IMG/VR virus record: IMGVR_UViG_3300042887_003606
Coordinates: 1 to 28,185 of that record
Source of the DNA: a virus
Direction: 5' to 3' (one strand)
DNA length: 28,185 nt
This document shows positions 5,789-28,059 of this stretch, one piece after another. The notes below the pieces were generated by a model that saw only the letters and a list, made by a program, of their open reading frames with translations, searched no databases and was not told the DNA's origin. The stretch's first letter is position 1, and the number at the start of each line of letters is the position of its first letter. Made by a program: the position numbers and the translations under genes.

Positions 5789-5789
5789 T

Positions 5790-6188: not shown

Positions 6189-6197
6189 TAGTTCTCC

Positions 6198-6446
6198 TTA
6201 ATAACTTCTATATATGACATAAGGGTAATAATAAATAGGATAATAATATGTTGGATAATAATAAATTACTGGCTGGTATGTATATGTAACTGTTTGTACG
6301 GGCACATTAACGTATTGTACTGGCTGTTGAACTGGTACATTTACATACTGTACTAATTGCTGAACTGGAACATTTACATATTGCTGTGGGACATTTACAT
6401 GTATTTGTCCAATTGTTATAGCTACTAATGCTATTAAAGAATTCAT
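6198..6446 (-). CDS. small exported-looking Tyr/Val/Gln/Pro repeat protein
   Basis: 82 aa, strongly biased in composition. Residues 1-14 are a short hydrophobic stretch resembling a signal sequence. Residues 22-54 hold three copies of an 11-residue unit, QYVNVPVQQLV, QYVNVPVQQPV and QYVNVPVQTVT. The last 25 residues are almost only Tyr, Pro, Ile and Val (VIYYYPTYYYPIYYYP). The start has GGGGAAACGCA before ATG, so it looks translated. No enzyme motif is visible. The pattern suggests an extracellular or envelope-associated adhesive or structural peptide; that is inference. A near-perfect promoter lies about 160 bases upstream inside the preceding gene. Confidence 0.7.
   Translation of the reverse strand: MNSLIALVAITIGQIHVNVPQQYVNVPVQQLVQYVNVPVQQPVQYVNVPVQTVTYTYQPVIYYYPTYYYPIYYYPYVIYRSY
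6285..6383 (-). repeat. three tandem 33-bp coding repeats
   Basis: Within the preceding gene, 33-base units encode QYVNVPVQ plus three variable residues, three times in tandem (residues 22-54). The copies are similar at DNA level (core tacatactgtac/tacatattg variants with aactgg spacers), consistent with slippage or unequal exchange. Confidence 0.8.
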
Positions 6447-6679
6447 TGCGTTTCCCCTTCTAAATAAAAAACACCGTTCATAAAGTCACTTACTGTCTCT
6501 TGCCTTTTTGAGAAAATTAAGTGATATGTTCTTCCAAGAATATTGATTTTTGTTGTCCAAGGACTATTATCTACATTAGATAAAAACCCATCTTCATTCA
6601 TTCCATTATATATCTCTTGCGGCAAATTGTCAAGTATAATTTTTGAATTTTCTACATAAAATGCTTGCACGTAATCCAT
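6443..6679 (-). CDS. hypothetical protein, 78 aa
   Basis: Not recognised. It is a small soluble-looking protein with a beta-rich C-terminal half (KINILGRTYHLIFSKRQETVSDF) and no cysteines or hydrophobic segment. The start ATG overlaps the stop of the small membrane gene upstream (TAATG), and its stop overlaps the start of the repeat protein gene by four bases, which supports it being real. Its codons for residues about 15-26 also contain the promoter-like sequence at 6605-6633. Confidence 0.65.
   Translation of the reverse strand: MDYVQAFYVENSKIILDNLPQEIYNGMNEDGFLSNVDNSPWTTKINILGRTYHLIFSKRQETVSDFMNGVFYLEGETQ
6605..6633 (-). promoter_or_regulatory. sigma-70-type promoter inside a gene
   Basis: On the minus strand TTGACA (6628-6633) is followed by a 17-base spacer and TATAAT (6605-6610): a 12/12 match at the ideal spacing. 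It lies in the coding sequence of the 78-aa protein and would drive the Tyr-rich repeat protein and genes beyond. A chance match is possible in AT-rich DNA, but several similar sites occur in this window. Confidence 0.5.
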
Positions 6680-6789
6680 TAATTTTCTTTCGTCCCTATT
6701 TTTGTGTTAGATAATACTCTGGTTAAAACTATAAAATAAAAAACCGTAAACAATACAAATCCAACTCCAAGATAATCGCTAATTGTCAT
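6679..6789 (-). CDS. 36-aa single-pass membrane peptide
   Basis: A short gene running from ATG at 6787-6789 to TAA at 6679-6681. The product has one hydrophobic segment (residues about 8-25, GVGFVLFTVFYFIVL) and a short polar tail ending in KIGTKEN. Its start overlaps the dUTPase stop (ATGA) and its stop overlaps the next ATG (TAATG), exactly the coupling used by its neighbours. That is the main reason to accept so short a gene. Function unknown; it does not match a holin by length alone. Confidence 0.65.
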   Translation of the reverse strand: MTISDYLGVGFVLFTVFYFIVLTRVLSNTKIGTKEN

Positions 6790-7229
6790 CCCGAACTCCC
6801 AAATCCTTTGTCTCCACGAGTTGTTGAATCAAGATCTTCAACTTCAATTGGAGTAAAATCAGGAATAGGCTGCACAATCATTTGAGCAATCTTATCTCCC
6901 GGAGAAACAATTTGACATGCACTATCTTCATTAATAATCAACACTTTAACTTCTCCACGGTAGGGAGCATCAATAACTCCTGCCATTGTATCAAAGCCTT
7001 TCTTTACAGCAAGTCCTGATCTTGGCCAAATTAAGCCCACAAAACCTTTTGAAATTCCAACCGCAATTCCTGTAGAGAATAGTTTACGTTCTCCCGGATT
7101 AAGCACTACAACTTCTGTTTCGTCACAATATAAATCTAGCCCAGCATCAAATAGATTAGCTTTATCTGGAAGTTTTGCTGTTGGGGTTAATTTTTTAACT
7201 GGTAGTTCATAACTTAAAAATGCACTCAT
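6786..7229 (-). CDS. dut: dUTP diphosphatase (dUTPase)
   Basis: Hydrolyses dUTP to dUMP and pyrophosphate, keeping uracil out of phage DNA and feeding thymidylate synthesis. 147 aa, the normal length of trimeric dUTPases. Conserved motifs in order: NLFDAGLDLYC, PRSGLAVKKG, GVIDAPYRGEVKVLIIN, KIAQMIVQP, and the C-terminal RGDKGFGSSG, the Gly-rich arm that closes over the active site. The start is placed at 7229 because AAGGA lies 6 bases before this ATG and it overlaps the upstream stop as ATGA. An in-frame start 7 codons earlier lacks these signals. Confidence 0.96.
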   Translation of the reverse strand: MSAFLSYELPVKKLTPTAKLPDKANLFDAGLDLYCDETEVVVLNPGERKLFSTGIAVGISKGFVGLIWPRSGLAVKKGFDTMAGVIDAPYRGEVKVLIINEDSACQIVSPGDKIAQMIVQPIPDFTPIEVEDLDSTTRGDKGFGSSG

Positions 7230-7696
7230 GATTTTCCTTTCAATAAACAAGATTCACAACGATAAAATTCTCTAGCGTATATTGGTAAAACTCTCTCCCT
7301 TTTTCCACATACTTCACAAATTTGATTGACTTTTTGCTCTTCGATTGATTTTCTAGTTCTCTCAGTTTGTTTAACATTTGGCGTTACAATATCTCTATGT
7401 TCTCCTTCATCAACATATTTATTATTTCTTTGGCCAGTAGAAATTGGTTGCTTTCTTCCGCTTTTTTCTACGACATTTGATCCCGCCTTTGACATGGTGA
7501 ATTCTCCCATATCAAATCTTCCAGCGATAGTCTTTTTTTCTGTTGGCACTGACGACTGAACTGCGATTGGATTTGCAGAAATTATTTCTTGATCATAAGC
7601 GTCTAACATTTCTAAACCCATTCGAACTAATTCGGGATCATTTAACTTTTTTCCTTTTGCTATAATTATTTTTGCCTGTTCTTTAAGATCGTTCAT
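7226..7696 (-). CDS. hypothetical protein with C-terminal zinc ribbon
   Basis: 156 aa. The C-terminus has CEVC (about 126-129) and, 19 residues on, CESC, a CxxC...CxxC pair likely to bind one zinc. The N-terminal 40 residues form a helix-rich segment (MNDLKEQAKIIIAKGKKL). The middle is polar and probably disordered, with KSGRKQPISTGQRNNK. AGGAG lies 8 bases before the ATG. Zinc ribbons of this type in phages may bind DNA or protein; nothing here decides which. It is coupled to dUTPase by ATGA. Confidence 0.7.
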   Translation of the reverse strand: MNDLKEQAKIIIAKGKKLNDPELVRMGLEMLDAYDQEIISANPIAVQSSVPTEKKTIAGRFDMGEFTMSKAGSNVVEKSGRKQPISTGQRNNKYVDEGEHRDIVTPNVKQTERTRKSIEEQKVNQICEVCGKRERVLPIYAREFYRCESCLLKGKS

Positions 7697-8168
7697 ACGA
7701 CTTACTCCTGCTTATATTTTCTAATACTTTAATTGATTGCTCGATTCCTTTTACTTGCGATTCTGCTGATAATACTCTGGATTCAGAAGTTGTTTTAAGT
7801 TTTTGTAATTTTAAACCAACCTCGCTATTTCTTATTGCAGAATAGTACTTTTCTTCCCATTTAGCATACTTTTCGTGCTTTTGTCCAGTTATTATATACC
7901 AGATTCCTTGTTCTGCCCATTGCTTAACCGCTTTCTCTCTGGCAATTACATTGTTTATATATGTCATATATTTATTAAGAGAATATATTGCAGTTTGGCA
8001 ATCAACTGACGACATTTTTCTTAAGTCTTCTTCTGACATATACATTATTTGATAAACTCTACCAACTAATTCAGAAGAGTTTTTTAATCCATAATCAATA
8101 AAATGTCCAGAGATCCAGTCGTCTATGCTTTTCTGGAACGCTTCGCATTTTTTTTCTATGTCGTCCAT
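7683..8168 (-). CDS. helical protein next to RecA; possible UvsY-like recombination mediator
   Basis: 161 aa, almost entirely helical and charged, with no cofactor motif. The segment KYAKWEEKYYSAIRNSE followed by LQKLKTTSESRVLSAESQVKGI resembles phage recombination mediators that load the recombinase on single-stranded DNA. It lies two genes from RecA in the same operon, the setting known for UvsX/UvsY. The similarity is general and I hold the name loosely. The ATG at 8166-8168, preceded by GGAAAG, is preferred over a GTG five codons earlier. It overlaps the nuclease gene by 13 bases. Confidence 0.65.
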   Translation of the reverse strand: MDDIEKKCEAFQKSIDDWISGHFIDYGLKNSSELVGRVYQIMYMSEEDLRKMSSVDCQTAIYSLNKYMTYINNVIAREKAVKQWAEQGIWYIITGQKHEKYAKWEEKYYSAIRNSEVGLKLQKLKTTSESRVLSAESQVKGIEQSIKVLENISRSKSYERS

Positions 8169-8569
8169 AGCTTTTCTTTCCACTCTTCTAGTGTTTCATT
8201 TTCAAATAATTCTATTAGTGTAAACTCATTAAGATCGCACCAAGTTTTTTTATCTTTATCTCTTGCTTGAGCTTTATAAAATTCCATCTTATTAGCAAAA
8301 AAGAAATTATTAAACTCTGTATGCTGTCGGCCATGCACTTCAACGATTAGTCCCCTAACTGGAATAAAAAAATCCGCTTTTAAAGTGGATTTTCTTGTAC
8401 TTGTCTTTGTTCCGGGCAAAACTATCTCTTCTAGTATTCGATCATTAGGATAACGCTCTTTTAATAAATCCTTAGCTTTAGCATGTGGTCCTGATCGACG
8501 TTCAGTTTCTACAATATTATTGCTAGGAATCCAAGAGTACTCTTTACCATCTAATCCAATAATGTTCAA
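8156..8569 (-). CDS. PD-(D/E)XK / DUF559-like endonuclease
   Basis: 137 aa. The core KADFFIPVRGLIVEVHGRQH has an acidic residue on one strand and an E-V-H-G-x-Q-H motif on the next, as in DUF559, Vsr-like and related PD-(D/E)XK nucleases. It is followed by FTLIELFENE, the usual closing strand and helix. The N-terminal part (GPHAKAKDLLKERYP) is a helix typical of such short phage nucleases. The start appears to be TTG (8567-8569), overlapping the recA stop as TTGA, with AAGGAAC 8 bases upstream. Its position directly behind recA suggests a role in recombination, for example branch cleavage. A homing or mismatch-type nuclease is the alternative. Confidence 0.7.
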   Translation of the reverse strand: MNIIGLDGKEYSWIPSNNIVETERRSGPHAKAKDLLKERYPNDRILEEIVLPGTKTSTRKSTLKADFFIPVRGLIVEVHGRQHTEFNNFFFANKMEFYKAQARDKDKKTWCDLNEFTLIELFENETLEEWKEKLWTT

Positions 8570-9558
8570 TATAATAGTTCCTTAACTTTAGACTCCAGCG
8601 TTTTATATGCTTCTGGATTTTCAGTTAAATAATTATATACCTTCTCTTGTCCTTGCAACTTAACTTTTTCAGATTCAATAAAGTCAAGGTTGTACCATGA
8701 GCCAGCAACTGAAATAAGACCAAGATCGATTGCAATCATAAGAATTTCTTGCACTTTGTCGATTCCATGACCAAATCTAATCCAACTCTCGCAAGTCTTA
8801 TAAGGAGATCCAATAGATGAACAAAGGATATCCCATGTAACCTTTAATCCAATGACATTCTTTTGATCTTTACTAGAGCTTGCAGATTCCCAAGGCTGAA
8901 CACTTTTTACTTCCATTCTCGTGTCGGCTTGGAATTGAATCTTAACACCGCCATCAGCCATTTTACTCTTACCATATCCACTGGTATTCGTAATCATGTG
9001 CGTAATCATGATAACAAGACACTTTTGGTTTGGTACAGTTTGACCAAGTTTTTTTACAAAATCTGATAGAATCTTTGGCAAACCCGGACGAGTCATGCCG
9101 CTAATATCTTCATCAAGATCACGAGAAGGAATTAGGGAAGAAATAGAGTCAATAACAAGAACACAACCTTCGTTCTCTTTTTCAGATATTAACTTTCTTG
9201 CAATATCAAGAAATGTTTCTGCTGGTAATGGCTGGTCTCCTGATCGAATTACTTGCACTAAAGATGGATCGATTCCCGGAACTTCAAAGTTCATTTCTTT
9301 AAGCCGACCCTCTACATCAAGATAAATAATCTTTCGACCTTCTGCTTGACAGTTGGCAATGATTTGCATAGTTGTGGTTGTCTTGCCAGCTTTTGGTGGC
9401 CCAGAAAGAATCATCCAAGAGCCTTCTTTAACACCACCTCCTAGAGCAAGATCAATTGCAGGACTAATAGAGATAGTTTTGTAGCTTTTTTTAGTTTCTA
9501 ATACTTTTTCGCCAGTTGTTACGTAATCGCCATATTTTTTAAGAAAATCTTTATCCAT
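8566..9558 (-). CDS. recA: RecA-family recombinase
   Basis: Homologous-recombination ATPase, 330 aa, similar in length to bacterial RecA and phage UvsX. Walker A is GPPKAGKT (53-60), Walker B CVLVIDSISSL (D137), and the stretch MITHMITNTSGYGKSKMADG corresponds to the L1/L2 side with the post-Walker B region. The N-terminal oligomerisation helix of bacterial RecA is reduced. The start ATG overlaps the end of the upstream gene by 8 bases and has no strong ribosome-binding site, so translation may be coupled. A promoter-like site lies about 105 bases upstream at 9663-9690. Confidence 0.93.
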   Translation of the reverse strand: MDKDFLKKYGDYVTTGEKVLETKKSYKTISISPAIDLALGGGVKEGSWMILSGPPKAGKTTTTMQIIANCQAEGRKIIYLDVEGRLKEMNFEVPGIDPSLVQVIRSGDQPLPAETFLDIARKLISEKENEGCVLVIDSISSLIPSRDLDEDISGMTRPGLPKILSDFVKKLGQTVPNQKCLVIMITHMITNTSGYGKSKMADGGVKIQFQADTRMEVKSVQPWESASSSKDQKNVIGLKVTWDILCSSIGSPYKTCESWIRFGHGIDKVQEILMIAIDLGLISVAGSWYNLDFIESEKVKLQGQEKVYNYLTENPEAYKTLESKVKELLY

Positions 9559-10015
9559 TGTTATTCATGTCACTTTCTATATCTTTCAATCTATTTACAA
9601 GCGTTTTGGTTCCAAATGATTTTCTTGGTTTAAATTCAAGTGGCTCAATCGCAATTATTTCAATTGTATCACGCTTTGGCGTATTGTCAAGAGCAAATTT
9701 AATTTTTTCAATTTCTTTTTTTACATTTCTAGCTCCAAGAGAAATTGTATTTTTACCTGCACTTGACTTTACAAATTTTATAACAGACTCTTCGCCGTAT
9801 TCTTTTATTAGTTTATTTGCTAACGAAACTTGCCTAATATATATTTTTTTCCATTTTGGCAGATTCCAAAACTTATAGGGGAGCGTCCCTACTTTTTCAT
9901 GCTTTGCAAGTTTCTGACAAATTAATTCAGCAACATATTGTGCTGAAGTACAAAAGTCTCCAGTTGATGGAGACTTGTATTTACTTAATGCAGTCTGGAT
10001 TTTTTTTCCCGACAT
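9551..10015 (-). CDS. hypothetical protein upstream of recA
   Basis: 154 aa, basic, no recognised motif. The segment KFWNLPKWKKIYIRQVSLANKLIKEYGEE looks like a DNA-associated helical domain and recurs in my memory among phage replication-region proteins, but I cannot name it. The start is preceded by AGGATAACTG. Its last 8 bases overlap the recA start. Confidence 0.7.
   Translation of the reverse strand: MSGKKIQTALSKYKSPSTGDFCTSAQYVAELICQKLAKHEKVGTLPYKFWNLPKWKKIYIRQVSLANKLIKEYGEESVIKFVKSSAGKNTISLGARNVKKEIEKIKFALDNTPKRDTIEIIAIEPLEFKPRKSFGTKTLVNRLKDIESDMNNNG
9663..9690 (-). promoter_or_regulatory. promoter ahead of recA, inside the upstream gene
   Basis: Minus strand TTGACA (9685-9690), 16-base spacer ending in TGA, then TACAAT (9663-9668). 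This is a full -35 with an extended -10 differing from consensus by one base. Spacer length and TGn element match the intergenic promoters at 19.92, 24.54 and 26.51 kb. It would give recA an extra transcript. Confidence 0.5.
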
Positions 10016-10482
10016 TTACAGTTATCCTCGCACATTATTCTTTTTTTAAAAAGTAACTTTTCATTTTCAGGAGTTATTTCTCTGATCTCTTCGTCTTCAC
10101 CAAGAGCGAATTGTGGCCAATAAAATTTCTTAACATGAATTTTGTTGTCACTCTTAACAATTCCAAAAGACATGAACTTGTATATCACATCAGTATTATC
10201 GGTTAGTTCTTTGCAAAGCCCTCTTATAATAAAAAATTTATCAAGGCCATTGTCATCTTGAAATATTGTTTGCTCTGGCATTCCGGGGCAAAGAACTCTT
10301 ACTTCAATTACTTTTATATTATTATTAAAGCAGAACTCTTTTAGTCTTGTCCAAGGATCTTTTTTGTCAGAAGCGTCAAAATCTGACCACACTTCTGTTC
10401 CATTATCAAGAATGCACTTCCATAATATTTCTTGCTTATCTAAAAGTAATAATATGTCTTTATTGAAACTTGTACAAAGCAT
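9985..10482 (-). CDS. hypothetical protein, 165 aa
   Basis: Not recognised. It begins with a beta-rich segment (EILWKCILDNGTEVWSDFD) followed by a helix-strand unit (LKEFCFNNNIKVIEVRVLCPG). The C-terminus has a Cys cluster, CEDNCKC (about 155-161). The pattern 'express X as cost of Y, large numbers in interface sentences' is not relevant; what can be said is that the N-terminal half resembles small phage proteins of mixed alpha/beta fold. The start overlaps the upstream stop (TAATG), and its 3' end overlaps the next gene by 31 bases. Confidence 0.65.
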   Translation of the reverse strand: MLCTSFNKDILLLLDKQEILWKCILDNGTEVWSDFDASDKKDPWTRLKEFCFNNNIKVIEVRVLCPGMPEQTIFQDDNGLDKFFIIRGLCKELTDNTDVIYKFMSFGIVKSDNKIHVKKFYWPQFALGEDEEIREITPENEKLLFKKRIMCEDNCKCREKKSRLH

Positions 10483-10781
10483 TAGTCTTCCCTAATTTTA
10501 CGAACACAATTTCCAAGTCTTGGAGGAATATTATATCCATTTGTAGGTTGTCTATTTTTTGCTGTTTCATCAGCCCTCATAGACGCTTGCTCTGTCATTG
10601 CAGTTACACCATAATCTTTTTTATGAGCAAACAACTCTCTTGTTTCAGGATAGCCTTTTGGACTTGGCTCATTTTTCTGGGCTACTTTAGGTTCAGTAAT
10701 ATTTACCTTTTTATTTTCATTGCCCATTTTAACTGTTTTGTTTATATTGGTTTTTGGAACTTCCACCTTTTTCTTCGGCAT
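10482..10781 (-). CDS. hypothetical polar, probably disordered protein
   Basis: 99 aa. Lys/Asn/Glu/Pro-rich N-terminal half (MPKKKVEVPKTNINKTVKMG), then FAHKKDYGVTAMTEQASMRADE and a basic end. There is no hydrophobic core or cysteine pattern. The ATG at 10779-10781 is chosen because AAAGGA lies 8 bases upstream; an in-frame TTG two codons earlier is too close to that site. It is coupled to both neighbours. Confidence 0.65.
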   Translation of the reverse strand: MPKKKVEVPKTNINKTVKMGNENKKVNITEPKVAQKNEPSPKGYPETRELFAHKKDYGVTAMTEQASMRADETAKNRQPTNGYNIPPRLGNCVRKIRED

Positions 10782-10783
10782 AA

Positions 10784-11140
10784 TCAATATCCTTTATTTT
10801 GAAATTCTCTTTGAGCATAAGTTAAAAACATTGATCTTCGTGTTTTCAAATACTGTAAATAATATGAAAAAACTTTCTCATCAGCTTTTTTAAATTGAAA
10901 ATTGTAGGCATTGATTTTATTAGAGTCCATTCCAAAAGGATCAAATATCATACCCCTTCCAATTTTTACATAGTAATTAATTGTTTTTTTCTGTTCTTCT
11001 TTGTTTACTATTGTTGCAATTTTAGCAACAGCGTTATGCTCTTCTCCTGATTTTCCTGTCTTCTCGATAAACTCTACGTTTACTTCATCTTTTTCTGGTA
11101 AATTAAGATCTTGTATATTTTCATTTTCGTTTCTTGACAT
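10784..11140 (-). CDS. hypothetical protein, 118 aa
   Basis: Not recognised. An acidic N-terminus (residues 1-35) leads into a compact region with NYYVKIGRGMIFDPFGMDSN, a helix, and the basic aromatic end YLKTRRSMFLTYAQREFQ. The shape suggests a small nucleic-acid- or virion-associated protein, but this is a guess. AGGAAAAACAA precedes the ATG. Confidence 0.65.
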   Translation of the reverse strand: MSRNENENIQDLNLPEKDEVNVEFIEKTGKSGEEHNAVAKIATIVNKEEQKKTINYYVKIGRGMIFDPFGMDSNKINAYNFQFKKADEKVFSYYLQYLKTRRSMFLTYAQREFQNKGY

Positions 11141-11369
11141 TTGTTTTTCCTAGACTTTCAAGCATATTTTTTACTTTTTCAATACAATCCTTCTTATCAT
11201 ATCCTACCACATGAATCTCGCCTTTGTTTGTCATTTTTAAATTTTGAAATTCTTCTGTGCAATCTACAATTTCAGGATCAACACTACCATCATCTAACAT
11301 TCTATGGATATATAGATTCACTTTTAGTATTCCTATATGTGGACCTACATTGAATTTTTCTCTTATCAT
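11121..11369 (-). CDS. hypothetical protein, 82 aa
   Basis: Small alpha/beta protein, not recognised. The N-terminal strands (GILKVNLYIHRMLDDGSVD) and a C-terminal helix (CIEKVKNMLESLGK) with basic tail are visible. AGGAAAACT lies directly before the ATG; the stop of the FmdB-like gene overlaps its start, and its own end overlaps the next gene by 20 bases. Confidence 0.65.
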   Translation of the reverse strand: MIREKFNVGPHIGILKVNLYIHRMLDDGSVDPEIVDCTEEFQNLKMTNKGEIHVVGYDKKDCIEKVKNMLESLGKTNVKKRK

Positions 11370-11707
11370 AGTTTTCCTGTTTCAATAAATTTCCGTTGTT
11401 TCTCTGGAGACAGCTTTGCTATTTTACTATTTAGCTCTCTTTTTTCTCTGTGCTTAATTCTTTCTAAAGAGCTGTCCTTTGCCATCTTTTCTTCAAGTCC
11501 ATACCGCCCAAGGCTTTTGGCATTCTTTTCGGCGAGCTGGCCGATTGTCTTCACCTCTTTATTTATTATAACAGGAGGCTCATCCAAAACAACCGACAAG
11601 CCCGCTTTTTCGCAAAATGGACAGATGGTTCTTAATGGTTCTTTGATTGAATGAAAGACTTCGAATTCTTCTTTGCATTCTTTGCAAGCATAGTGATAAG
11701 TTGGCAT
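11366..11707 (-). CDS. FmdB-family zinc ribbon protein
   Basis: 113 aa. The start MPTYHYACKECKEEFEVFHS is the signature of the FmdB/YwhP putative regulatory zinc ribbon family: C8-x2-C11, then C29-x2-C32 (CPFC). The family opening M-P-x-Y-x-Y-x-C is intact. The C-terminal half is a charged helix (LERIKHREKRELNSKIAKLS). The ATG at 11705-11707 with GAGGA 5 bases upstream is clearly the right start. A longer in-frame extension would run through the neighbouring gene. In phages the family is common but of unknown role, possibly transcriptional. Confidence 0.85.
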   Translation of the reverse strand: MPTYHYACKECKEEFEVFHSIKEPLRTICPFCEKAGLSVVLDEPPVIINKEVKTIGQLAEKNAKSLGRYGLEEKMAKDSSLERIKHREKRELNSKIAKLSPEKQRKFIETGKL

Positions 11708-11714
11708 AAATTCC

Positions 11715-11975
11715 TCAAAAACTTGGTTTATCTTCTGGATTAGACTCGTAGTATTCCTCAGAAACATAAGATAGAAAATGGGCATATCCTTCTTTGATAA
11801 TTCTCTCTTCTTCTTTTGTTCTTTCTTCAAAATCAATCATATAGTTATAATGTTCAATAATCTCAACATTAATATCTTGAGATTCTTCTTTCATGTCTTT
11901 CATTGCTGCATAAGATAAAGCTAAGTTACCTATTAAGATTCCAGCAACAATGATTGGAGCGACATACTTTCTCAT
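11715..11975 (-). CDS. small membrane-anchored or exported protein
   Basis: 86 aa. Residues 5-24 form a hydrophobic signal/anchor (YVAPIIVAGILIGNLALSYA) after a basic MRK, with an AxA-like end that could be cleaved. The rest is acidic and helical (ERTKEEERIIKEGYAHFLSYV). Function unknown. The start overlaps the phoH stop as ATGA; the ribosome-binding site is weak, so translation is probably coupled. Confidence 0.65.
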   Translation of the reverse strand: MRKYVAPIIVAGILIGNLALSYAAMKDMKEESQDINVEIIEHYNYMIDFEERTKEEERIIKEGYAHFLSYVSEEYYESNPEDKPSF

Positions 11976-12667
11976 CTAGTCTCTAGCCTTTCTAGTACTC
12001 GACCGATTATAGGGTTACGAACAATATCTGTTGCCTGAAGTTCACAAACTCCAACTCCTTGTAATCCAAATAGCTTGTCTCTAATATCCATCATTGCACC
12101 CCTCATAGAAAGGGGTAGGTCTGATTGATATGGATCGCCTTCAATAATTGCTCGTGAATGCATTCCTATTCTAGTTAAAAACATTTTTATTTGTTCATAC
12201 GTTGCGTTCTGTGCTTCATCAAGTATCATAAATGAATGATGGAAGTTTCTTCCTCTCATATACTCAAGTGGACAGAGTTCAACAATTCCAGCAGCAAGCT
12301 GTTTGTTTAATAATTCTCTGCCAAGATATTGCTGCATCTCTTCAAGAACTGGCATAACATAGGGTTGTATCTTCTCATCTTTACTACCGGGAAGATATCC
12401 AAGCCCTCTACCGGCTTCAACAACTGGTCTTGTTACTATGATTTTTTCTATTTTATTTTCTAAAAGCCAGTTACACGCAAGACCAACAGCAACCGAAGAT
12501 TTGCCAGATCCTGCTGGACCTGTACAAATTGTAATATCGTTTTCAACCATAGATATGATATAGTTTTCTTGATTAATACTTTTCGGTTTAAGTATTTTAC
12601 GATGCGGATTAGTTATAGCACTTGCTGTTGCTCTTTGAGCGGTTTTTCTTGTTTTGCGTGTTGACAT
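11972..12667 (-). CDS. phoH: PhoH-like ATPase
   Basis: 231 aa, the usual length of phage PhoH core proteins. Walker A is TGPAGSGKS (49-57), with IIVTRPVVEAGRGLGYLPG and Walker B HSFMILDEAQNA (D150, E151), all diagnostic of the PhoH family. The last conserved part is IIEGDPYQSDLP. PhoH is an RNA-helicase-like or nuclease-associated ATPase carried by many large phages. Its role in infection is not settled. A basic 30-residue N-terminal tail precedes the domain. Confidence 0.93.
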   Translation of the reverse strand: MSTRKTRKTAQRATASAITNPHRKILKPKSINQENYIISMVENDITICTGPAGSGKSSVAVGLACNWLLENKIEKIIVTRPVVEAGRGLGYLPGSKDEKIQPYVMPVLEEMQQYLGRELLNKQLAAGIVELCPLEYMRGRNFHHSFMILDEAQNATYEQIKMFLTRIGMHSRAIIEGDPYQSDLPLSMRGAMMDIRDKLFGLQGVGVCELQATDIVRNPIIGRVLERLETR

Positions 12668-21229: not shown

Positions 21230-21600
21230 TGCTCCTCTCCTGTGCTTTTGCATTTACATCCCTCGGCAGAGTTTGTACAAGGACAGTACACTCTATTCCC
21301 ATCGGGCTGCACTAGTACTTTTGTTCCATTGCATTCACAGGCTGGCTTTGGCTTTGGTTCTGGCTTAGGCTGAGGCTTCGGCTCTGGCTTAGGCTCAGGC
21401 TTTGGAGCTTCTTTTTTTATATACATTTTTTCTACTGTTTCAAGCACAAGATTTGCCCTATCAACAGTATTTTTTAATTCAGTTTCTACGTCTCTATTGC
21501 CATATGCGGCAAGTTCTTTTTGAGAATTGGAATAGTCATTATAAACAACTGCTAATGAAAATCCAATCAATCCCATTATTAATAATTGTATCTTTTTCAT
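21226..21600 (-). CDS. TM protein with PKPEP rod and three CxC motifs
   Basis: 124 aa. TM about residues 5-20, a short helix, then residues 65-87 of alternating Pro-Lys/Pro-Glu (APKPEPKPEPKPQPKP onward), as in the rigid periplasm-spanning arm of TonB. The C-terminal 35 residues hold C88-E-C90, C106-P-C108 and C115-K-C117. The three CxC pairs suggest a metal site or a disulfide-rich head. The layout would let an inner-membrane protein reach the outer envelope, so a spanin-like role in lysis is a reasonable guess. ATGA coupling follows directly from the protease gene. Confidence 0.65.
   Translation of the reverse strand: MKKIQLLIMGLIGFSLAVVYNDYSNSQKELAAYGNRDVETELKNTVDRANLVLETVEKMYIKKEAPKPEPKPEPKPQPKPEPKPKPACECNGTKVLVQPDGNRVYCPCTNSAEGCKCKSTGEEQ
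21340..21408 (-). repeat. short tandem coding repeat (PKPEP)
   Basis: About 12-base units of the form ggcttnggctct on the plus strand recur and encode alternating Pro-Lys and Pro-Glu. It is an expandable low-complexity tract. Confidence 0.8.
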
Positions 21601-22526
21601 GCATATACCTCTTTTATTCTATCCCAAACCATTTTTCTAACAAATCCGTCAAAATTACTGTACGCAAAAGCAGCACCAGCGGCAAGCATTTTTTCAGCAA
21701 CACTTTGTCTAATCCAAAAACTTCCTTCTGGTTGATTATGAAACTTTGGACCGCTATTCCATTTGCCCCAACTATTTTGAACTAAGAATAAAGTTTCGTT
21801 TAATCTTTCATATGTATCATCGCAAGCAATCCATGCCATAGCATGTGCCCATGATCCTTGCACTTCAGCAATACCGTACTTATCTCTGACAGAAGAGAAC
21901 CCAAGATCAGAGCAAACGGAAAGTGCATAACCATTTGCAAGCAAGTCTCTTGCTTGTTCAACTGAAGTTACCGCTGTAGCTGTTTTAATTTTATGCTTGT
22001 TGCAATTTTCAAGAATTGATTTTGGAATACCTTTGGAACCCCACGCTGTTCCAAGACCAGCATTATAAACAGACAAGTCAATCTTATCATATTTTTGTCT
22101 TGCTAAGAATCCACCTGTTAAGCTAACAAATCTTGCGGCTTGAGAGCAGTACATTCCTTGTCCACCGTGACCTCTACATCCATAGATTGGCTCTGTTGCT
22201 CCTCTTGCTACGAATACTTCTTTATCGCCTTTGTAAAGAATCTCATAGCATCTCGTAATATCAATAGCGTTTCTTGCAGCATGACTTACACAGTCGCCAG
22301 TTGTTTGTCTTTCATCTTCTCCAAAGAGAGGAAAGAAATGTTGAATTGCTTTATACGGCAATGAAAGAGTACCTTTTCCTGTTCCGTATATATCATTACC
22401 AAAACTGCTAAATAGCGGTCTTGGCAACTCTTCCATTAATGCTGCCATATCTTTAGAATCGCAAACTGCACCCTTTAAGCCATTATCATATTCTTTTAAA
22501 ATATCTTCTGGAGTTTCAAAGCCCAT
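21597..22526 (-). CDS. papain-like (C1-type) cysteine protease
   Basis: 309 aa. The catalytic layout of clan CA is complete: oxyanion Gln in RQTTGDCVSH (Q74) with nucleophile C79, His in SWAHAMAWIA (H228), and Asn in LVQNSWGKWN (N251; papain has NSWG). Two Gly-rich segments (RGHGGQGMYCSQAARF) resemble the substrate cleft. There is no signal peptide, so it is cytosolic until released or packaged. GGAGATCTTAA before the ATG. It opens the run of membrane proteins down to 19950, so it may be the lytic enzyme. A role in capsid maturation or as a virion enzyme is the alternative. Confidence 0.82.
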   Translation of the reverse strand: MGFETPEDILKEYDNGLKGAVCDSKDMAALMEELPRPLFSSFGNDIYGTGKGTLSLPYKAIQHFFPLFGEDERQTTGDCVSHAARNAIDITRCYEILYKGDKEVFVARGATEPIYGCRGHGGQGMYCSQAARFVSLTGGFLARQKYDKIDLSVYNAGLGTAWGSKGIPKSILENCNKHKIKTATAVTSVEQARDLLANGYALSVCSDLGFSSVRDKYGIAEVQGSWAHAMAWIACDDTYERLNETLFLVQNSWGKWNSGPKFHNQPEGSFWIRQSVAEKMLAAGAAFAYSNFDGFVRKMVWDRIKEVYA

Positions 22527-23595
22527 TTAAGATCTCCTTCGCTGTATTTTCCCATGAAAATTTAATTGCAGTTTCAATTCCTGCTAAATTATTTTGTAGT
22601 TGATTGTTTACTTTTTTATTATGAATTTCTCTCATATAATTTGCCGTTTGTTCGATTTGTCTATCCTCAAATGCAGCCCATTCACCTTGTCCATGAAACC
22701 AGATTCCATCATGAGCCGGTTCAAGTTTATCTATTTCAATCAAATATGAATTTTCTGTATTTGTAAATTCTGTGTGGCCCGAATAATTTGTTGTAATCAC
22801 ATGTTTTCCACAGGATAGCAATTCAAGAAGTTCAAGATTCCATCCCTCTGCCTTAACAGGAAAAACACCACAATCAATTTGTCTCATTATATTATACACA
22901 TTTTGATGTGATTTTTGTCGTGGTAAAATTTTAATCTTATTAGCTAACTTGGAATTTTTGTAATAATTGTTCCATTGTTCATTAATTTGATTAATAAATG
23001 GATTTTCACATAAAAGCCAAAGCTCAACATCGTCATCTTTTGTGAACGCTGCTTCAAAACACTTTAGAAGAACATCATGTCCTTTTCTAATTTCCCACTT
23101 ACCACAATTAAAAAATACTGTTGGCTTTCTTGCTACATTATTATTTTCATTAAAAATGGAACGATCAACACCAAGAGGAACGACATCTATCATTTCATCT
23201 GGAATGCTTATCTGGTCCTGAATAACACCTTTTGCCCACTTTGAACAAACGAAGATTTTGTCGCAAAACATCATACTTCGCTTTTCTTGTAGCGTAAATT
23301 TATTTAATTCAAAAATAGGAAATCCAATTTGAGTTCCATTGCCAACTCTTTCATGGAGTTGATTTTGATGCCAGATTTTAATAGACGTAGTTTTATTTCT
23401 ACAGTCTAAAATATTCTTTATTCGCCAGTCATATTTTTGTAAATCTTGATATAACTCAGGTTCAGGATCTCCAATAGGAAAAATAGCTACGTCTTCCCCA
23501 GATTTTACTAGTTGTTTTGCGATATTATATCCGGCTACACCATAGCCAAGACTATTAATTGGACATTGCAAAATCATAATATTTTTCTCTTTCAT
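22516..23595 (-). CDS. glycosyltransferase, family GT4-like
   Basis: 359 aa GT-B fold sugar transferase. The N-terminal part has the Gly-rich SLGYGVAGYNIAKQLVKSG. The C-terminal nucleotide-sugar domain has FFNCGKWEIRKGHDVLLKCF and the E-x7-E motif EGWNLELLE (E250, E258), followed by GKHVITTNYSGHTEF. It likely glycosylates virion proteins or surface polymers. Start at 23595, right after the upstream stop; an internal ATG 6 codons later has a slightly better AAAGAG site. Overlaps the protease start by 11 bases. Confidence 0.88.
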   Translation of the reverse strand: MKEKNIMILQCPINSLGYGVAGYNIAKQLVKSGEDVAIFPIGDPEPELYQDLQKYDWRIKNILDCRNKTTSIKIWHQNQLHERVGNGTQIGFPIFELNKFTLQEKRSMMFCDKIFVCSKWAKGVIQDQISIPDEMIDVVPLGVDRSIFNENNNVARKPTVFFNCGKWEIRKGHDVLLKCFEAAFTKDDDVELWLLCENPFINQINEQWNNYYKNSKLANKIKILPRQKSHQNVYNIMRQIDCGVFPVKAEGWNLELLELLSCGKHVITTNYSGHTEFTNTENSYLIEIDKLEPAHDGIWFHGQGEWAAFEDRQIEQTANYMREIHNKKVNNQLQNNLAGIETAIKFSWENTAKEILNGL

Positions 23596-23598
23596 TAT

Positions 23599-24096
23599 TT
23601 ATAAACAATCAGTAAGAAAATTTTCCAACAATCTTTTTGAAAGAAGATATATTGAATATTTAGGTTTACCATTTGGAAAATTTAAACAATTATGCTGCAA
23701 GTCGGCAATTTTTATGATACATGCAGCTAATTTTTCTGGAATAGAACAATCAATTAGATTAAAGATATATTCTGCATAATCTACATTTTTTTCATGTGTT
23801 AATAATCTAACAATAGTTGCTACATTTGAATTGAAAACATCTACAAGTTCTTGAAAAGTTACGTCTGTATCTTCAATTGTGTCATGAAGAAGTGCAGCTG
23901 CCAATACGTCAGATTCATTAATCTGGTAAGTTTCAAAATACAAATCAAGATCTGCACGATTATCATCAAGAAATTTTTTAGTATTTTCATATACTTTTAA
24001 AATGTGATCTTCGTAGTAATCTGCTCCGCTCCATCGTTTTTGTCCACTGTGAGCTTTTTGAGCAAAGATTTTAACGTCATTAATTGTCCACGACAT
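23599..24096 (-). CDS. HD-domain hydrolase, SpoT/MESH1-like (p)ppGpp hydrolase
   Basis: 165 aa single-domain protein. Motifs of the RelA/SpoT hydrolase domain: FAQKAHSGQKRW, H31 in EDHILKV, HD and ED in LLHDTIEDTDVT (H71, D72, E75, D76), and IKIADLQHN (D132). No synthetase or regulatory domain is present, as in small alarmone hydrolases (MESH1). It could break down (p)ppGpp or a related nucleotide during infection; the substrate is inferred. GGAGAAAAAGC before the ATG. Confidence 0.82.
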   Translation of the reverse strand: MSWTINDVKIFAQKAHSGQKRWSGADYYEDHILKVYENTKKFLDDNRADLDLYFETYQINESDVLAAALLHDTIEDTDVTFQELVDVFNSNVATIVRLLTHEKNVDYAEYIFNLIDCSIPEKLAACIIKIADLQHNCLNFPNGKPKYSIYLLSKRLLENFLTDCL

Positions 24097-24131
24097 TGCT
24101 TTTTCTCCTTTTTCTTGTGCTTATCGCACGT

Positions 24132-24494
24132 TTAATCATTCTGCCAAATTTTGATAATATTGTCTGGAAAATAAAGATCTTTAATATTATCTTCTAGATC
24201 TTCAATTGTTTGACCGGCAAAACCAGTTGCAAGAGGAGTTAACAGGAAGATAAGATCATCGTGTATATGGGCGTATTTTATTAGCTCTACTAATTGTTCT
24301 CGTACATAATCCCATCCCACAAACCCCTTTTGTAAATCTTTAGTTATTATAGCGTATGTCTGGCCCTGCCGCCCCTTAGCTTGTCCGTATTTTGCACCCC
24401 ACATCATAGCGGTTTTAGCTGCCCCAGCACCGTGCCTACCTTCAGTATTACTACCAAATACAAATATTTCATTCTGCAATAAAAATTCTACCAT
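24132..24494 (-). CDS. macro-like conserved phage protein
   Basis: 120 aa. The motif FVFGSNTEGRHGAGAA near the N-terminus, followed by GQTYAIITKD and LTPLATGFAGQ, recalls macro-domain (ADP-ribose-binding) folds and a family found in many phages. Name kept loose. The ATG at 24492-24494 has GGAG 6 bases upstream; an in-frame TTG four codons earlier lies in the terminator U-tract. Its product could act on ADP-ribosylated targets or signal nucleotides; unproven. The gene directly follows the promoter/terminator overlap. Confidence 0.65.
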   Translation of the reverse strand: MVEFLLQNEIFVFGSNTEGRHGAGAAKTAMMWGAKYGQAKGRQGQTYAIITKDLQKGFVGWDYVREQLVELIKYAHIHDDLIFLLTPLATGFAGQTIEDLEDNIKDLYFPDNIIKIWQND

Positions 24495-24504
24495 TGTTTT
24501 CTCC

Positions 24505-24536
24505 AAAAAAAAGAGCTACCCAATTCTGGATAGCTC
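24505..24536 (-). terminator. rho-independent terminator ahead of the macro-like gene
   Basis: A 9-bp stem GAGCTATCC / GGGTAGCTC (one T-G pair; 24528-24536 and 24513-24521) with a 6-base loop, then eight Ts (24505-24512). It would end transcripts from the DUF1559 unit. It overlaps the start region of the promoter at 24538-24565. Confidence 0.88.
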
Positions 24537-24537
24537 T

Positions 24538-24565
24538 ATTATAACAGGTTTCGTCTTTATGTCAA
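24538..24565 (-). promoter_or_regulatory. sigma-70 promoter with extended -10
   Basis: TTGACA (24560-24565), 16-base spacer ending TGT, TATAAT (24538-24543): full consensus with TGn. The -35 contains the DUF1559 stop codon TGA. The predicted start (about 24531) falls within the left arm of the terminator, so own transcripts may escape it. It would drive the genes from 24494 to about 19950. Confidence 0.87.
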
Positions 24566-25683
24566 TAAGAATCTGCGGAAATTACTTCTCCACCAGCTCT
24601 TGTAATCAAAGATCTAACTACAGAAGTTGATGCTGTTTCTTTTACAAATCTTACACTGCCATCTGACATACAGATATTTGCTCCGCCCGGATGCCAGCTA
24701 AAGATTTCATTGTTTGGTCCGCAGTCGTGAGTTGACCATGTTGCAGTTCCTCCGCAACTAATTTGACTAAATGATCCATTTCTATTATTATTAATACCGC
24801 TAGATACGCCAGCAGCATTATCTGGATCGCCCCATCGCCAGCTACGTCTTGCCCCAGCAACATAAGGAGCGGGAGCGTTCAAGTCTGGCAAGTAATCAGT
24901 GGTAGGCATTGAGTAATTTCCAGTTCCTTGCATTTTTGGACTTCTGCCCGTGTCTTCATAAAACATAGCAGTGTTAGAAGTGCCATCTGTAGTTGCTGAA
25001 ATTGGTACGCCTTGAAAAATATCGACTGCTCCTGAAATTACTTTACTAGGGTCGATCTGATAAGTTTTAATGCTAGAGCAGCTAGAGCAATTAAATACTG
25101 TATAGGCTGATACTGGGTAAGGACTGCCAGTTAGTGGACCATCCATAGGAACTGGAGATACATATCCAGTTTGCCACTTTGTCGTTCCATTTGCCATGAT
25201 TTCCGTATACGGGGCTGTTGCATAGTCAATACATCCAAATCCAACGCTGTCTTTTCCATTGTTTCTATCTGATGACAAGGCATTTGTTGGACACAAGAAT
25301 GTCGCAATCATTGTATTAGTTGCTGTTGTGTTCCCTGCAAAATTATAAGGTAGCTGTAGATTGAATTGATTATATACATTACCTTGCTCAATTGTTCCAA
25401 GAATCATTGTGAACGTACTATGATAATCTTGGGTTTTATAAACTTGAGAGTTTACCGGAAGATTATGTTCGCCTGATCGTGGAAGTGTTCCTCTAATACT
25501 TTCAAAGTTGTGTGCCGCTAGTCCGATTTGCTTGAGATTATTAACACACTGAGATCTTCGAGCCGCTTCTCTTGCTGATTGTACAGCCGGAAGAAGAAGA
25601 CTGATTAATACAGCGATAATTGAAATAGTTACTAACAGCTCAATTAGAGAAAATCCACGACGAACATTTTTGTTTTTAATCAC
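24562..25683 (-). CDS. DUF1559 prepilin-like protein (planctomycete type)
   Basis: 373 aa. The N-terminus is a class III prepilin-like signal: KNVRRG, cleavage after G10, then [15 protein letters not shown] with E15 as the conserved glutamate at mature position 5, and a hydrophobic helix to about residue 33. The helix continues [25 protein letters not shown], the DUF1559 hallmark. The C-terminus carries H331-X9-D341-G ([13 protein letters not shown] then SVRFV). The family is present in dozens to hundreds of copies per planctomycete genome and is rare elsewhere. GTG start (25681-25683), overlapping the HNH stop, with GGAG 10 bases upstream. Probably host-derived and exported. Confidence 0.9.
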
Positions 25684-26401
25684 TTTTATTATTCTCCACT
25701 ATTATTCTGCAATAATTAAGAAATTGCTCTTGACTAAACGCCCATTTCATAGTATTAATATCTTTATGCAACCATTGCACATTACCTTCGATATAACCTT
25801 TTGCAGAATCTATTCTATCTAATGTTGCGGTCCATTTTTTATTGTCTATTTGTGGTAAATAAATATCTATTCCACTTATTGCGCATTTAAAATTTTGTTT
25901 TTTTAATATTTCATACGCATATTCTATAGATATAGAAAGCTCATTACCTCTTTTTTTTGCTCTATTTTTAACTACTGACCAGTAGTGACCAGATATCTTT
26001 TCATAACCTTTAAAGCTATGATTTTCTTTTCCATATTTTCGTTCATACTTTCCACAATTTTTACTTCTTTCAATTCTAGAGCATGAGTTGCAGCCTTTAG
26101 TTTGTCCAGAAATTAAGTCATAATATCTTACATTTTGTTCAGTGCCACATTCGCATTTACAGTTTAATATACCATTTGAAGTTTCTGTATCTCCTATATA
26201 GTTTAATACTGTCCAGCGATTATACTTATTTCCAATTGTAGATTTAATTTTATTTTTTGAATTTTTATTTTTAGAATTTTTAATACCATATTTATTCATA
26301 TAGTTATAAAATGTTCTTTTTGAAATATTTTTAGATTTACAGAAATCCACAATAGAGTTTTCACTATTAATTACATCTTCGATATCTTTTTGTGTTAGCA
26401 T
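25676..26401 (-). CDS. HNH homing-type endonuclease with N-terminal helical DNA-binding part
   Basis: 241 aa. A helix-turn-helix-like start ([21 protein letters not shown]), a basic linker, a middle zinc-binding-like segment ([26 protein letters not shown]), and a C-terminal HNH nuclease core: [31 protein letters not shown] and [10 protein letters not shown]. It is typical of free-standing phage homing endonucleases. The ATG at 26399-26401 is chosen (GGAG 7 bases upstream). It overlaps the DUF1559 start by 8 bases, so the pair may have arrived together. Confidence 0.85.
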
Positions 26402-26437
26402 TTTAAAGCTCCTTTCGCTTGTTATACTATACACAAT

Positions 26438-26494
26438 AATTCAATAGAAGTGAATTAATTCTATTAAAATAAAGAGGCGACTCTATTCGTCGCC
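26438..26494 (-). promoter_or_regulatory. structured leader upstream of the HNH gene
   Basis: Three hairpin possibilities on the minus strand: GGCGAC/GTCGCC (26489-26494 with 26476-26481, 7-base loop, then TCTTTATTTT, terminator-like); AATAGAA/TTCTATT (26459-26465 with 26443-26449); and AATTCA/TGAATT (26451-26456 with 26438-26443). The last two cannot form together. A weak second promoter (TTCACT, 17 bases, TATAGT at 26426-26431) may also exist. Confidence 0.5.
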
Positions 26495-26507
26495 CTTCGA
26501 CAACATT

Positions 26508-26535
26508 ATTATAACACTGAATAATCAAAAGTCAA
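26508..26535 (-). promoter_or_regulatory. sigma-70 promoter with extended -10
   Basis: TTGACT (26530-26535), 16-base spacer ending TGT, TATAAT (26508-26513). It lies between the 57-aa gene and the HNH gene and gives a leader of about 100 bases before the HNH start. One -35 mismatch. Confidence 0.8.
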
Positions 26536-26544
26536 GTGAAGATT

Positions 26545-26718
26545 TTATGAAGATTGTGCTTTTTTCAACGCTTCAGGGTCTGGACGATCAGGGTCTCCCG
26601 GCTTTGCCGGTTTATAGTTTTTGCCTTCTCGCTGCTTTTTCTTTTGGATATTTTCCCATAATCCGGGCTTTTCGGCTTCTGCGTATCCACTCATTGCGTC
26701 TATATAATTTTTTTTCAT
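26545..26718 (-). CDS. 57-aa conserved-type phage protein
   Basis: Short gene from ATG (26716-26718) to TAA (26545-26547), with GGAG 8 bases upstream. The product has KPGLWENIQKKKQREG then KPAKPGDPDRPDPEALKKAQ. The pattern 'GLW-N-I-x-KK/KR...KPG...P-x-A-x-K-x-A/SQ' recurs in small proteins of many tailed phages with unknown function, from memory. It lies alone between the FkbM gene and the next promoter. An in-gene CCGGC/GCCGG palindrome is part of the codons. Confidence 0.72.
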   Translation of the reverse strand: MKKNYIDAMSGYAEAEKPGLWENIQKKKQREGKNYKPAKPGDPDRPDPEALKKAQSS

Positions 26719-26767
26719 TTGAAACTCTCCTATATAAAAATATTTGACACTATATAATATTACACAA

Positions 26768-27349
26768 TTAACTTATTTCAGCTATTGTATCAAATCCACT
26801 TGTAGTTAAAGTGTACCCCGCTTTTGTTAGTTTAGATAATATATTATTATATAATATACTATTGCCAAAACTTAATGAAAACTCAGCATGGATGTGTTCA
26901 AATTGTATTCTTTTAATATCATATTTATCAAGATCAATGGTATTCACTATATCACAATCAAGACCTTCTGTATCAATATATAATCTATCAATTATTTTTA
27001 AATTTTGACTATCGAAAAAATCATTAATAGTCATTGCTGGAACCGTAAATGATATGATATCTTGATGCTTAACATGCATTACAACATGTTCTCTCTTGAC
27101 TGAAGTGGCTTCGCATCTTACTTCATTTGCTGGCATAAATAATTCTAATTCTTTTTTATTTGGATCTTCTGTTATGGCAATATTAAAGAAGTGTACATTT
27201 TCAAATCCACTATAATGATTTACCGCCATATTCAAAGCGGATTTCATAGGTTCTATTAAATATGCATTTTTAATTGCATTTTTATTAGATTTAATATAAT
27301 GGAAAACGTGATCATCGCCATGATTACATCCAACTTGTACTATATTCAT
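26768..27349 (-). CDS. FkbM-type SAM-dependent methyltransferase
   Basis: 193 aa. SAM-binding motif I is VQVGCNHGDD (5-13), then YLIEPMKSAL (acidic residue at the end of strand 2) and the FkbM signature TINDFFDSQ...IDRLYIDTEGLD with DCDIV. It probably O-methylates a sugar made by the adjacent glycosyltransferases. AAGGAAATTTT before the ATG; the start overlaps the stop of the GT gene. Slightly short for the family (about 220-250 aa). Confidence 0.82.
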   Translation of the reverse strand: MNIVQVGCNHGDDHVFHYIKSNKNAIKNAYLIEPMKSALNMAVNHYSGFENVHFFNIAITEDPNKKELELFMPANEVRCEATSVKREHVVMHVKHQDIISFTVPAMTINDFFDSQNLKIIDRLYIDTEGLDCDIVNTIDLDKYDIKRIQFEHIHAEFSLSFGNSILYNNILSKLTKAGYTLTTSGFDTIAEIS

Positions 27350-28059
27350 AAAATTTCCTTAAAGTTATTAGTATACATATTTATTGATTCTATCCAGTAC
27401 TCGTTAAAATGATGCTGTTTATGCCATTCAGAATTTGGAACATGAGTTCCCATTTCAGCACCAATATTTTGTATTCTTGAAATAGTTGGGAATAACTCCC
27501 ATCTTTCTTTTCTTGCTACATGATTTATAGTAGCGTCCCAACTGCCATTTCGCCCTTGAAAATCCCAAACTTTTTCCATCTCATCAAATCTACTTTTCCA
27601 TGTTGCCCAGCCCCAAGGAGTGAACCAGCATCTGCGAAATACTCTATCTGTATTATTATTTTTAGGATAGTGATGTTCTGTTAAATTATCCGATGTGACA
27701 TATCCGCAAACCGTAAATAGACTAGAATCATCTCTAAATTGTTTTGCCCATTCAAAATATTTCAAACAATCTTTTCCGGGAATTGTATCGTCTTCAAAGT
27801 GAATATGATAATCATTTTGTGAAAATCCAATTGCAAGCGACTGGTAGATATTAGTATTACATCCCATTCTTCGTTTATTTATAATTGTTTCAGTTTGATT
27901 TGGTCTAAAGTTTTTAGCTAGTTTTTCAACTTCTTTTGATCCGGGGTCGCAACAAATTGTTATTTTATAATCTTCAATGCCAAAGCACTGATCAAGATGT
28001 TGTAAAAGTGTAGCAGTGTATTTTGGTCTATTATATAATGAAATTGTTAGCGTCTTCAA
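27346..28059 (-). CDS. GT-A fold glycosyltransferase (GT2-like)
   Basis: 237 aa. The opening KTLTISLYNRPKYTATLLQ is the nucleotide-binding strand of GT-A enzymes, with the metal-binding DXD-like acidic cluster HFEDDTIPG (E89, D90, D91) and an acceptor-side motif FTPWGWATWKSRF. The start is TTG (28057-28059), overlapping the previous stop (TTGA) with GAGGT 6 bases upstream; no in-frame ATG is near. Partner of the FkbM and GT4 genes. Confidence 0.83.
   Translation of the reverse strand: MKTLTISLYNRPKYTATLLQHLDQCFGIEDYKITICCDPGSKEVEKLAKNFRPNQTETIINKRRMGCNTNIYQSLAIGFSQNDYHIHFEDDTIPGKDCLKYFEWAKQFRDDSSLFTVCGYVTSDNLTEHHYPKNNNTDRVFRRCWFTPWGWATWKSRFDEMEKVWDFQGRNGSWDATINHVARKERWELFPTISRIQNIGAEMGTHVPNSEWHKQHHFNEYWIESINMYTNNFKEIL

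Follow-up and report, generated by a model that had tools for sequence, protein, structure and literature searches.

The locus described here raises the question of why a virus should carry a gene for a prepilin-like protein of the DUF1559 family, from where such a gene would have come, and what its product might do in the infected cell. The stretch of DNA analysed (the window) is an IMG/VR virus record of 28,185 bases with a GC content of 33.5%.

The DUF1559 gene and its neighbours

The gene lies on the minus strand of the window, begins with a GTG codon and forms an intact frame of 373 amino acids, whereas the plus-strand reading of the same interval is interrupted by many stops. The features of the region are collected in Table 1.

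Table 1. Features of the window around the DUF1559 gene
Feature	Position	Strand	Basis and remarks
DUF1559 prepilin-like gene	24562..25683	-	Pfam and NCBIfam profiles; found at the equivalent place in 13 further contigs
Codons for residues 10-60, prepilin cleavage motif and N-terminal helix	25504..25656	-	PF07963 and TIGR02532 above cut-off
Codons for residues 331-342, H-X9-DG motif	24658..24693	-	TIGR04294
HNH endonuclease	25676..26434	-	PHROG 3322, 90.9 bits
Hairpin in predicted 5' leader, just downstream of promoter-like site	26475..26495	-	Terminator-like scan
Promoter-like TTGACT-N16-TATAAT upstream of HNH and DUF1559 genes	26508..26535	-	11 of 12 consensus positions
FkbM-type methyltransferase, variable upstream stretch	26768..27349	-	PF05050, 37.7 bits; matched in L002, L003 and L008 only
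Gene of variable upstream stretch	27346..28059	-	Relatives of 51-54% in L010 and L011; without family match
Conserved gene directly downstream of DUF1559	24132..24506	-	PHROG 2072; own promoter-like site and hairpin (24512-24565)
Glycosyltransferase, conserved downstream	22516..23595	-	PF13692, 53 bits; PHROG 2170, 102.4 bits

The predicted product matched PF07596 (DUF1559 / SBP_bac_10) with 139.3 bits (cut-off 23.3) over profile positions 1-264 of 268, as well as PF07963 (N_methyl; 30.4 bits, cut-off 21.2), TIGR02532 (29.3 bits, cut-off 16.3) and TIGR04294 (H-X9-DG; 39.7 bits, cut-off 19). The sequence-only reading of this DNA had described a prepilin cleavage site, a helix segment and an exact H-X9-DG tail, all of which are present in the 373-residue protein: the cleavage motif RRG/FSLIE (the slash marks the cut) occupies residues 8-15, with Glu at position +5 and a hydrophobic helix thereafter, the segment [23 protein letters not shown] spans residues 38-60, and the tail motif is H331-X9-D341-G342. 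Conservation of the protein extends to its last residues. The GspG profile covered residues 9-69 with 30 bits, under its cut-off of 88.85, and in the NCBIfam profile search the named pilin models all scored far under their cut-offs.

The AlphaFold model of the protein (pLDDT 61, pTM 0.66) contains a long N-terminal helix (residues 13-64). A Foldseek search with this low-confidence model returned nothing at E 0.001. In a second structural comparison, all 13 of the matches listed were pilins or pseudopilins, the best having Z scores of 4.6 (123 residues, rmsd 4.2) and 4.3; this is suggestive at most, and Z scores of such a size may mean only a common arrangement.

The named matches among the window genes belong to phage replication, to nucleotide metabolism and to surface sugars, and the PHROGs families recognized include DNA polymerase, exonuclease, primase, DnaB helicase, UvsX, RNR and PhoH. 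The flanks of the gene are thus those of a phage, as had been proposed, and not of a bacterial chromosome; a chromosomal origin of the window is ruled out by this gene content.

In a scan of IMG/VR, 13 further loci were found at 72-100% identity, from 13 different data-set prefixes, three of which (L012-L014) are cut inside the DUF1559 gene. In all 13 contigs, relatives of the downstream genes of the window come next in unchanged order. Only the group of 100% identity (L002, L003 and L008) has the HD-domain gene that stands at 23599 in the window. Upstream of DUF1559, gene content differs among the loci and consists mostly of sugar-transfer and methyltransferase genes, as judged by eye. The HNH gene, whose last 8 bases overlap the DUF1559 gene start, was matched only in the same 100% group, and neither this gene nor the FkbM-type methyltransferase had a match within the 8 kb upstream of DUF1559 in L006, L009, L010 and L011; the loci other than these seven have little or no upstream DNA.

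Further downstream, a papain-like triad was recognized by eye in the conserved protein encoded at 21597-22526 (C79 in TTGDC, H228, and N251 in NSWG), and the triad residues were invariant in nine phage copies. Searches with this protein gave no match to a family in Pfam, PHROGs or NCBIfam or to a solved structure (best E 0.81), and its predicted model had a pLDDT of 33.5. The names assigned by eye in this work are those of the papain triad, the variable glyco genes of other loci, a thymidylate synthase-like gene and tail genes.

Residence in a phage lineage and planctomycete ancestry

The longest record of the group, G006 (155 kb), encodes a terminase, a portal protein, rIIA and rIIB, and therefore represents a large tailed phage; to judge from rIIA and rIIB, phages of this type are probably lytic. 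Both ends of the record lie in a collagen-like repeat, and 15 tRNA genes are present. The DUF1559 gene in G006 is distant from the terminase and portal genes, on the opposite strand. This position bears on whether the protein could be a virion or adsorption component, either packaged or serving to anchor progeny at the cell surface. Such a role would fit a tailed phage like G006, in which many tail genes are, as judged by eye, of surface type; however, the distance from terminase and portal, the other strand, the possession in one lineage of a promoter-like site of its own and a prepilin signal for membrane insertion all speak against it, and we consider it quite improbable.

The coding sequence bears the marks of strong constraint. 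Six pairs of close phage copies gave dN/dS values of 0.017-0.054, and the comparison of the window with the close-copy group gave 0.088-0.099, with synonymous sites near saturation. Between G006 and record G002 the DUF1559 protein is 98.1% identical, ranking third among 84 shared proteins (median 70.6), and between G006 and record G003 it is 75.5% identical, ranking tenth among 72 (median 63.1). In terms of amino-acid-changing differences (pN), its ranks were 2 of 84 and 14 of 72, respectively. In the G006-G002 pair pS was also low (0.33, rank 4 of 84, median 0.62), so part of the conservation may reflect recent exchange between phages. There was no sign in the gene of diversifying selection, such as a receptor arms race might show.

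The composition of the gene is that of its phage. GC3 was 0.26-0.35 in the phage copies, inside the range of the phage, versus 0.51-0.71 in the host orthologues described below, and codon usage correlated at 0.80-0.90 with phage genes versus 0.35-0.50 with three host genes. Within the phages, the codon usage of the gene lies below the phage-gene median (seventh lowest against 39 others in G006, eighth lowest against 24 in G003), and in overall GC it ranks fifth of 98 genes in G006 and second of 60 in G003.

The DUF1559 gene is a resident of a large tailed phage lineage and is under strong purifying selection. Its open frame and dN/dS agree with the earlier statement that it is intact and selected rather than a relic. 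The same reading had offered a host gene in transit as one explanation, and an assembly chimera would be a related one. A gene of host type within a phage, with the GC ranks and below-median codon usage just given, is what either would produce. Nevertheless, the gene order shared by the window and 13 further contigs, GC3 within the phage range, the codon correlations and dN/dS far below 1 contradict both, which are ruled out on these grounds and are scarcely credible as explanations.

To trace the origin of the gene, 84,980 species genomes were scanned by means of two narrow patterns, and four full-length relatives were found at 71-75% identity. Three of the four reside in MAGs titled Candidatus Kuenenia, which we take to be a planctomycete. 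These three (L040, L041 and L042, titled Candidatus Kuenenia stuttgartiensis) belong to one family with the fourth MAG (L043), and the title may be wrong. The four orthologues are 76-79% identical to the G006 copy; the stretches around them have a GC content of 51-60% and yielded no further match to a protein of the window or of G006. The four host genomes contain 48, 34, 66 and 56 DUF1559 matches, with, among the candidates scored, one match to the phage protein at E 1e-70 in each. Across the host family, a match at E 1e-70 was found in six of 45 genomes, with identity falling from 73-76% to 55-56% (again among candidates scored). In the class sample, with five candidates scored per genome, there was a match in 14 of 397 genomes, namely those six of the family and eight more at 43-50%.

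In the first tree, the seven full-length phage copies and the four host orthologues formed one clade (support 99/97) with host rows around it, so that the phage copies nest in a single host orthogroup; its support in the larger tree was 100/100. From the 204 DUF1559 matches of the four host genomes, the 30 with the highest scores served as paralogues in the first tree, where they were placed apart from this clade. Neither tree included the identical-copy loci L002, L003, L005 and L008 or the cut copies L012-L014. A single phage clade for both phage lineages had a p-AU of 0.268. Seven residues are common to both phage lineages versus all four hosts, and these fall outside the N-terminal helix and H-X9-DG.

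As placed by these trees, the DUF1559 gene of the phage group of the window is of planctomycete ancestry and would have been captured once or twice. The nearest relatives found are planctomycete, in keeping with the family assignment made at the outset, and close homologues were not found mainly elsewhere. For this reason, the probable host is one planctomycete lineage, an identity that rests on gene ancestry only. When the window DNA was searched against the 45 host-family genomes (at most six candidates scored per genome), the matches listed were all in the DUF1559 gene, with none in window positions 1-12000.

DUF1559 genes and their promoters in related phages

The window proved to be one case of a wider pattern, since relatives of its DUF1559 gene occur in many IMG/VR records; no relative was detected at E 1e-3 in 50,697 GenBank phage records. 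When a general DUF1559 alignment served as the query, 455 pattern matches and 217 relatives were obtained, and 80 of the latter were kept. Ten of these loci are the group of the window. Among the 70 others, 55 could be tied to G006, either directly or through one another, by two or more flank proteins in common (50 at a threshold of three), and 15 were unlinked to this component. Eleven of the unlinked loci have a GC of at least 0.51 and may be host fragments or prophages; the record of one, L096, has a terminase match. For L097, L100, L106 and L108 strands are mixed and the phage nature is less sure; the records of L097, L106 and L108 gave no terminase match.

DUF1559 was present as one copy in 36 of 37 chosen viral records and as two in the remaining one (G426, 171,040 bases; 90807-91709 and 145930-146769). 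A 355,825-base viral record carries a very divergent copy (L150, with a branch length of 2.02). The genomic position of the gene varies. In L138, L141, L145, L163 and L165 it lies between a relative of UvsX and a relative of the UvsX neighbour, these two genes having a 4-base overlap in both the window and G006. In L125, L134 and L137 it is found one to two genes past a relative of the G006 gene 48198, and in L128, L131, L142, L152 and L160 a few genes upstream of rIIA/rIIB relatives.

The relationships of the phages and of their DUF1559 proteins were compared by way of the terminases. In the terminase family search of 49 records, 22 matched at 1e-5, eight of these being strong and full-length (at least about 80 bits) and one reaching 46 bits; the remaining matches were short (under 35 bits), and in G003, as well as in the second G006 match, the gene concerned was PhoH. 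Terminases of seven DUF1559-bearing records share 50-77% identity. Those of G006, G412 and G421 are 63-66% identical, but the corresponding DUF1559 proteins only 30-36% (L111 being used in place of L112 of G412, with identical match figures). Conversely, G448 and G441 have terminases of 54% and DUF1559 proteins of 74% identity. A terminase scan, with a query built from DUF1559-bearing phages, yielded two contigs above 100 kb among the best 80 kept, both with DUF1559. The record G445 (159,659 bases; L203 and L204) contains two full-length terminase genes, 72% identical, as a result of either duplication or a chimeric contig.

The larger tree comprised 88 rows (95 less seven identical), and the branches with good support require the host label to change at least seven times and the other-phage label at least six times; few host rows underlie this count, and a change may run in either direction. 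Together, these forced changes, the differing lineages in related phages and the differing insertion sites indicate that capture or exchange of DUF1559 has probably recurred, as far as the sparse sampling of hosts permits.

The regulatory signals before the gene also differ among lineages. In the window, a strict promoter pattern occurred above chance (five sites versus 0-2 in mononucleotide shuffles), while a loose scan of positions 24000-27500 was at chance (15 sites versus 16.5 +/- 4.2 in shuffles); terminator-like sites numbered four, versus 1.6 +/- 1.2 in shuffles. In G006, a TTGACA-N17-TATAAT sequence stands 64 bases before the DUF1559 gene, and this record contains 34 strict sigma-70 consensus sites (mononucleotide shuffles, 0-1), 28 falling among small genes at 89-127 kb; the corresponding numbers are only seven for G003 and five for G002. 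Seven loci of the G006 group carry a consensus promoter and hairpin leader directly before DUF1559. In other phage groups, there was no strong sigma-70 enrichment before DUF1559 (7 of 56 loci versus 59 of 557 other genes). Hairpins of at least seven pairs within 100 bases upstream were seen at 20 of 56 DUF1559 loci versus 31 of 563 other genes, and before 10 of 128 other genes with a gap of at least 60 bases; many of the DUF1559 loci are near-copies.

In the window, by comparison, the HNH gene is what follows the promoter-like site and the hairpin, an arrangement suggesting that this gene came to be inserted between the promoter and the DUF1559 gene. The DUF1559 start codon is GTG in the lineage of the window, where HNH intervenes, and ATG in the sister lineage.

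Possible function and comparison with known systems

Carriage of this gene suggests a virus that remodels or protects the surface of its host cell during infection. Our preferred explanation, which we regard as plausible but short of probable, is that the protein is an envelope mimic that would remodel this surface, most likely for superinfection exclusion. Judging by the promoter sequence alone, the phage protein could be synthesized early from a host-type promoter. It would then be exported and cut by the prepilin peptidase of the host: the peptidase family PF01478 was found in none of 11 phage records, some of which are fragments, and in all four host genomes, with one to three each. The processed protein would enter the pilin-like envelope structures of the host, and competing or sister phages might no longer adsorb to, or inject into, a cell so altered. 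Exclusion would thus operate by replacement or masking of a surface DUF1559 protein, and the different paralogues in related phages would be matched to different hosts or receptors. This explanation is favoured because the DUF1559 lineage differs among phages of one clade, which mostly have a single copy, and because the G006 gene is distant from terminase and portal.

The main rival is that the phage supplies a short-lived host protein: with host synthesis stopped by infection, it would resupply, as with psbA in cyanophages, an envelope or secretion pseudopilin that is needed until lysis. The very low dN/dS, a sequence near that of the host orthologue and the retention of the family motifs are all consistent with such a supply, as is the consensus host-type promoter in one lineage. 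DUF1559 is the largest paralogue group in Planctopirus limnophila, and two of its 68 copies are reported to be essential (PMC10632474), which would also fit. On the other hand, a single critical protein predicts the same orthologue throughout, whereas related phages carry different DUF1559 lineages, and the host genomes already have 34-66 paralogues. We consider resupply unlikely, if well within reach.

The phage subunit could also act as a dominant-negative decoy that jams the host pilus or the type II secretion pseudopilus, thereby stopping pili, secretion or DNA uptake. Retention of the assembly helix, with the residues that set both phage lineages apart from the hosts falling further on, would suit a decoy, and so would a single copy, of differing lineage, in most of the phage records examined. 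Yet conservation to the last residues and the low dN/dS suggest a working protein and not a poison, and a decoy appears distinctly doubtful.

Surface remodelling with superinfection exclusion has a broader form, which we put forward only as a possibility, and a less than likely one: the lineages of a large clade of planctomycete phages may each have captured, swapped or moved a host-matched paralogue, usually present once, as an interchangeable pilin-like module that controls who infects. If this were true, the expanded planctomycete DUF1559 family would at least in part be a field of conflict over phage receptors. The retention of one copy with dN/dS near 0.03 in some phages, and the presence of other copies at other sites in their relatives, amount to evidence from nature that one DUF1559 protein is selectable by itself, and the phage genes offer small, testable versions of it. 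To our knowledge, few phages of planctomycetes are known, and this gene connects such hosts with a poorly known group of large phages.

In the literature searched, which leaves out most subscription journals and all preprints, there was no report of DUF1559 together with phage, of a phage-encoded pilin, of H-X9-DG with planctomycetes, of a pilin or auxiliary gene of a planctomycete virus, or, among the papers listed, of SBP_bac_10 with phage. What is described here is a gene that phages derived from their hosts, unusual in being pilin-like, and one that has probably been captured repeatedly. In these respects it recalls psbA of cyanophages, which is host-derived, strongly conserved and captured more than once; psbA encodes a photosystem subunit, in contrast to the pilin-like phage DUF1559 protein. 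In terms of proposed function, the nearer case is that of the S-layer genes of methylophage Melnitz, for which the authors propose altered host receptors and protection from superinfection (PMC9004378). The family and the host are different there, and the accessible part of that paper mentions neither a prepilin route nor repeated capture.

Type IV pilins and type II pseudopilins (PilA, GspG/PulG) have the N-terminal cleavage and helix segment in common with the phage protein. The latter is longer, however, at 373 residues versus 108-208 for the listed chains, one fusion apart, and differs further in that the pilin profiles stay under cut-off and Foldseek gives no match at E 0.001. The closest known system is the planctomycete DUF1559 family itself, with 74 genes in R. 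baltica (PMC2754498) and 91 genes with both domains in T. immobilis (PMC8567305). With this family (PF07596) the phage protein shares a full-length match, the prepilin signal, H-X9-DG and membership of one host orthogroup, and it is set apart by its phage-like codons and by its occurrence as one copy in nearly all of the phage records, versus the dozens of genes in each host genome.
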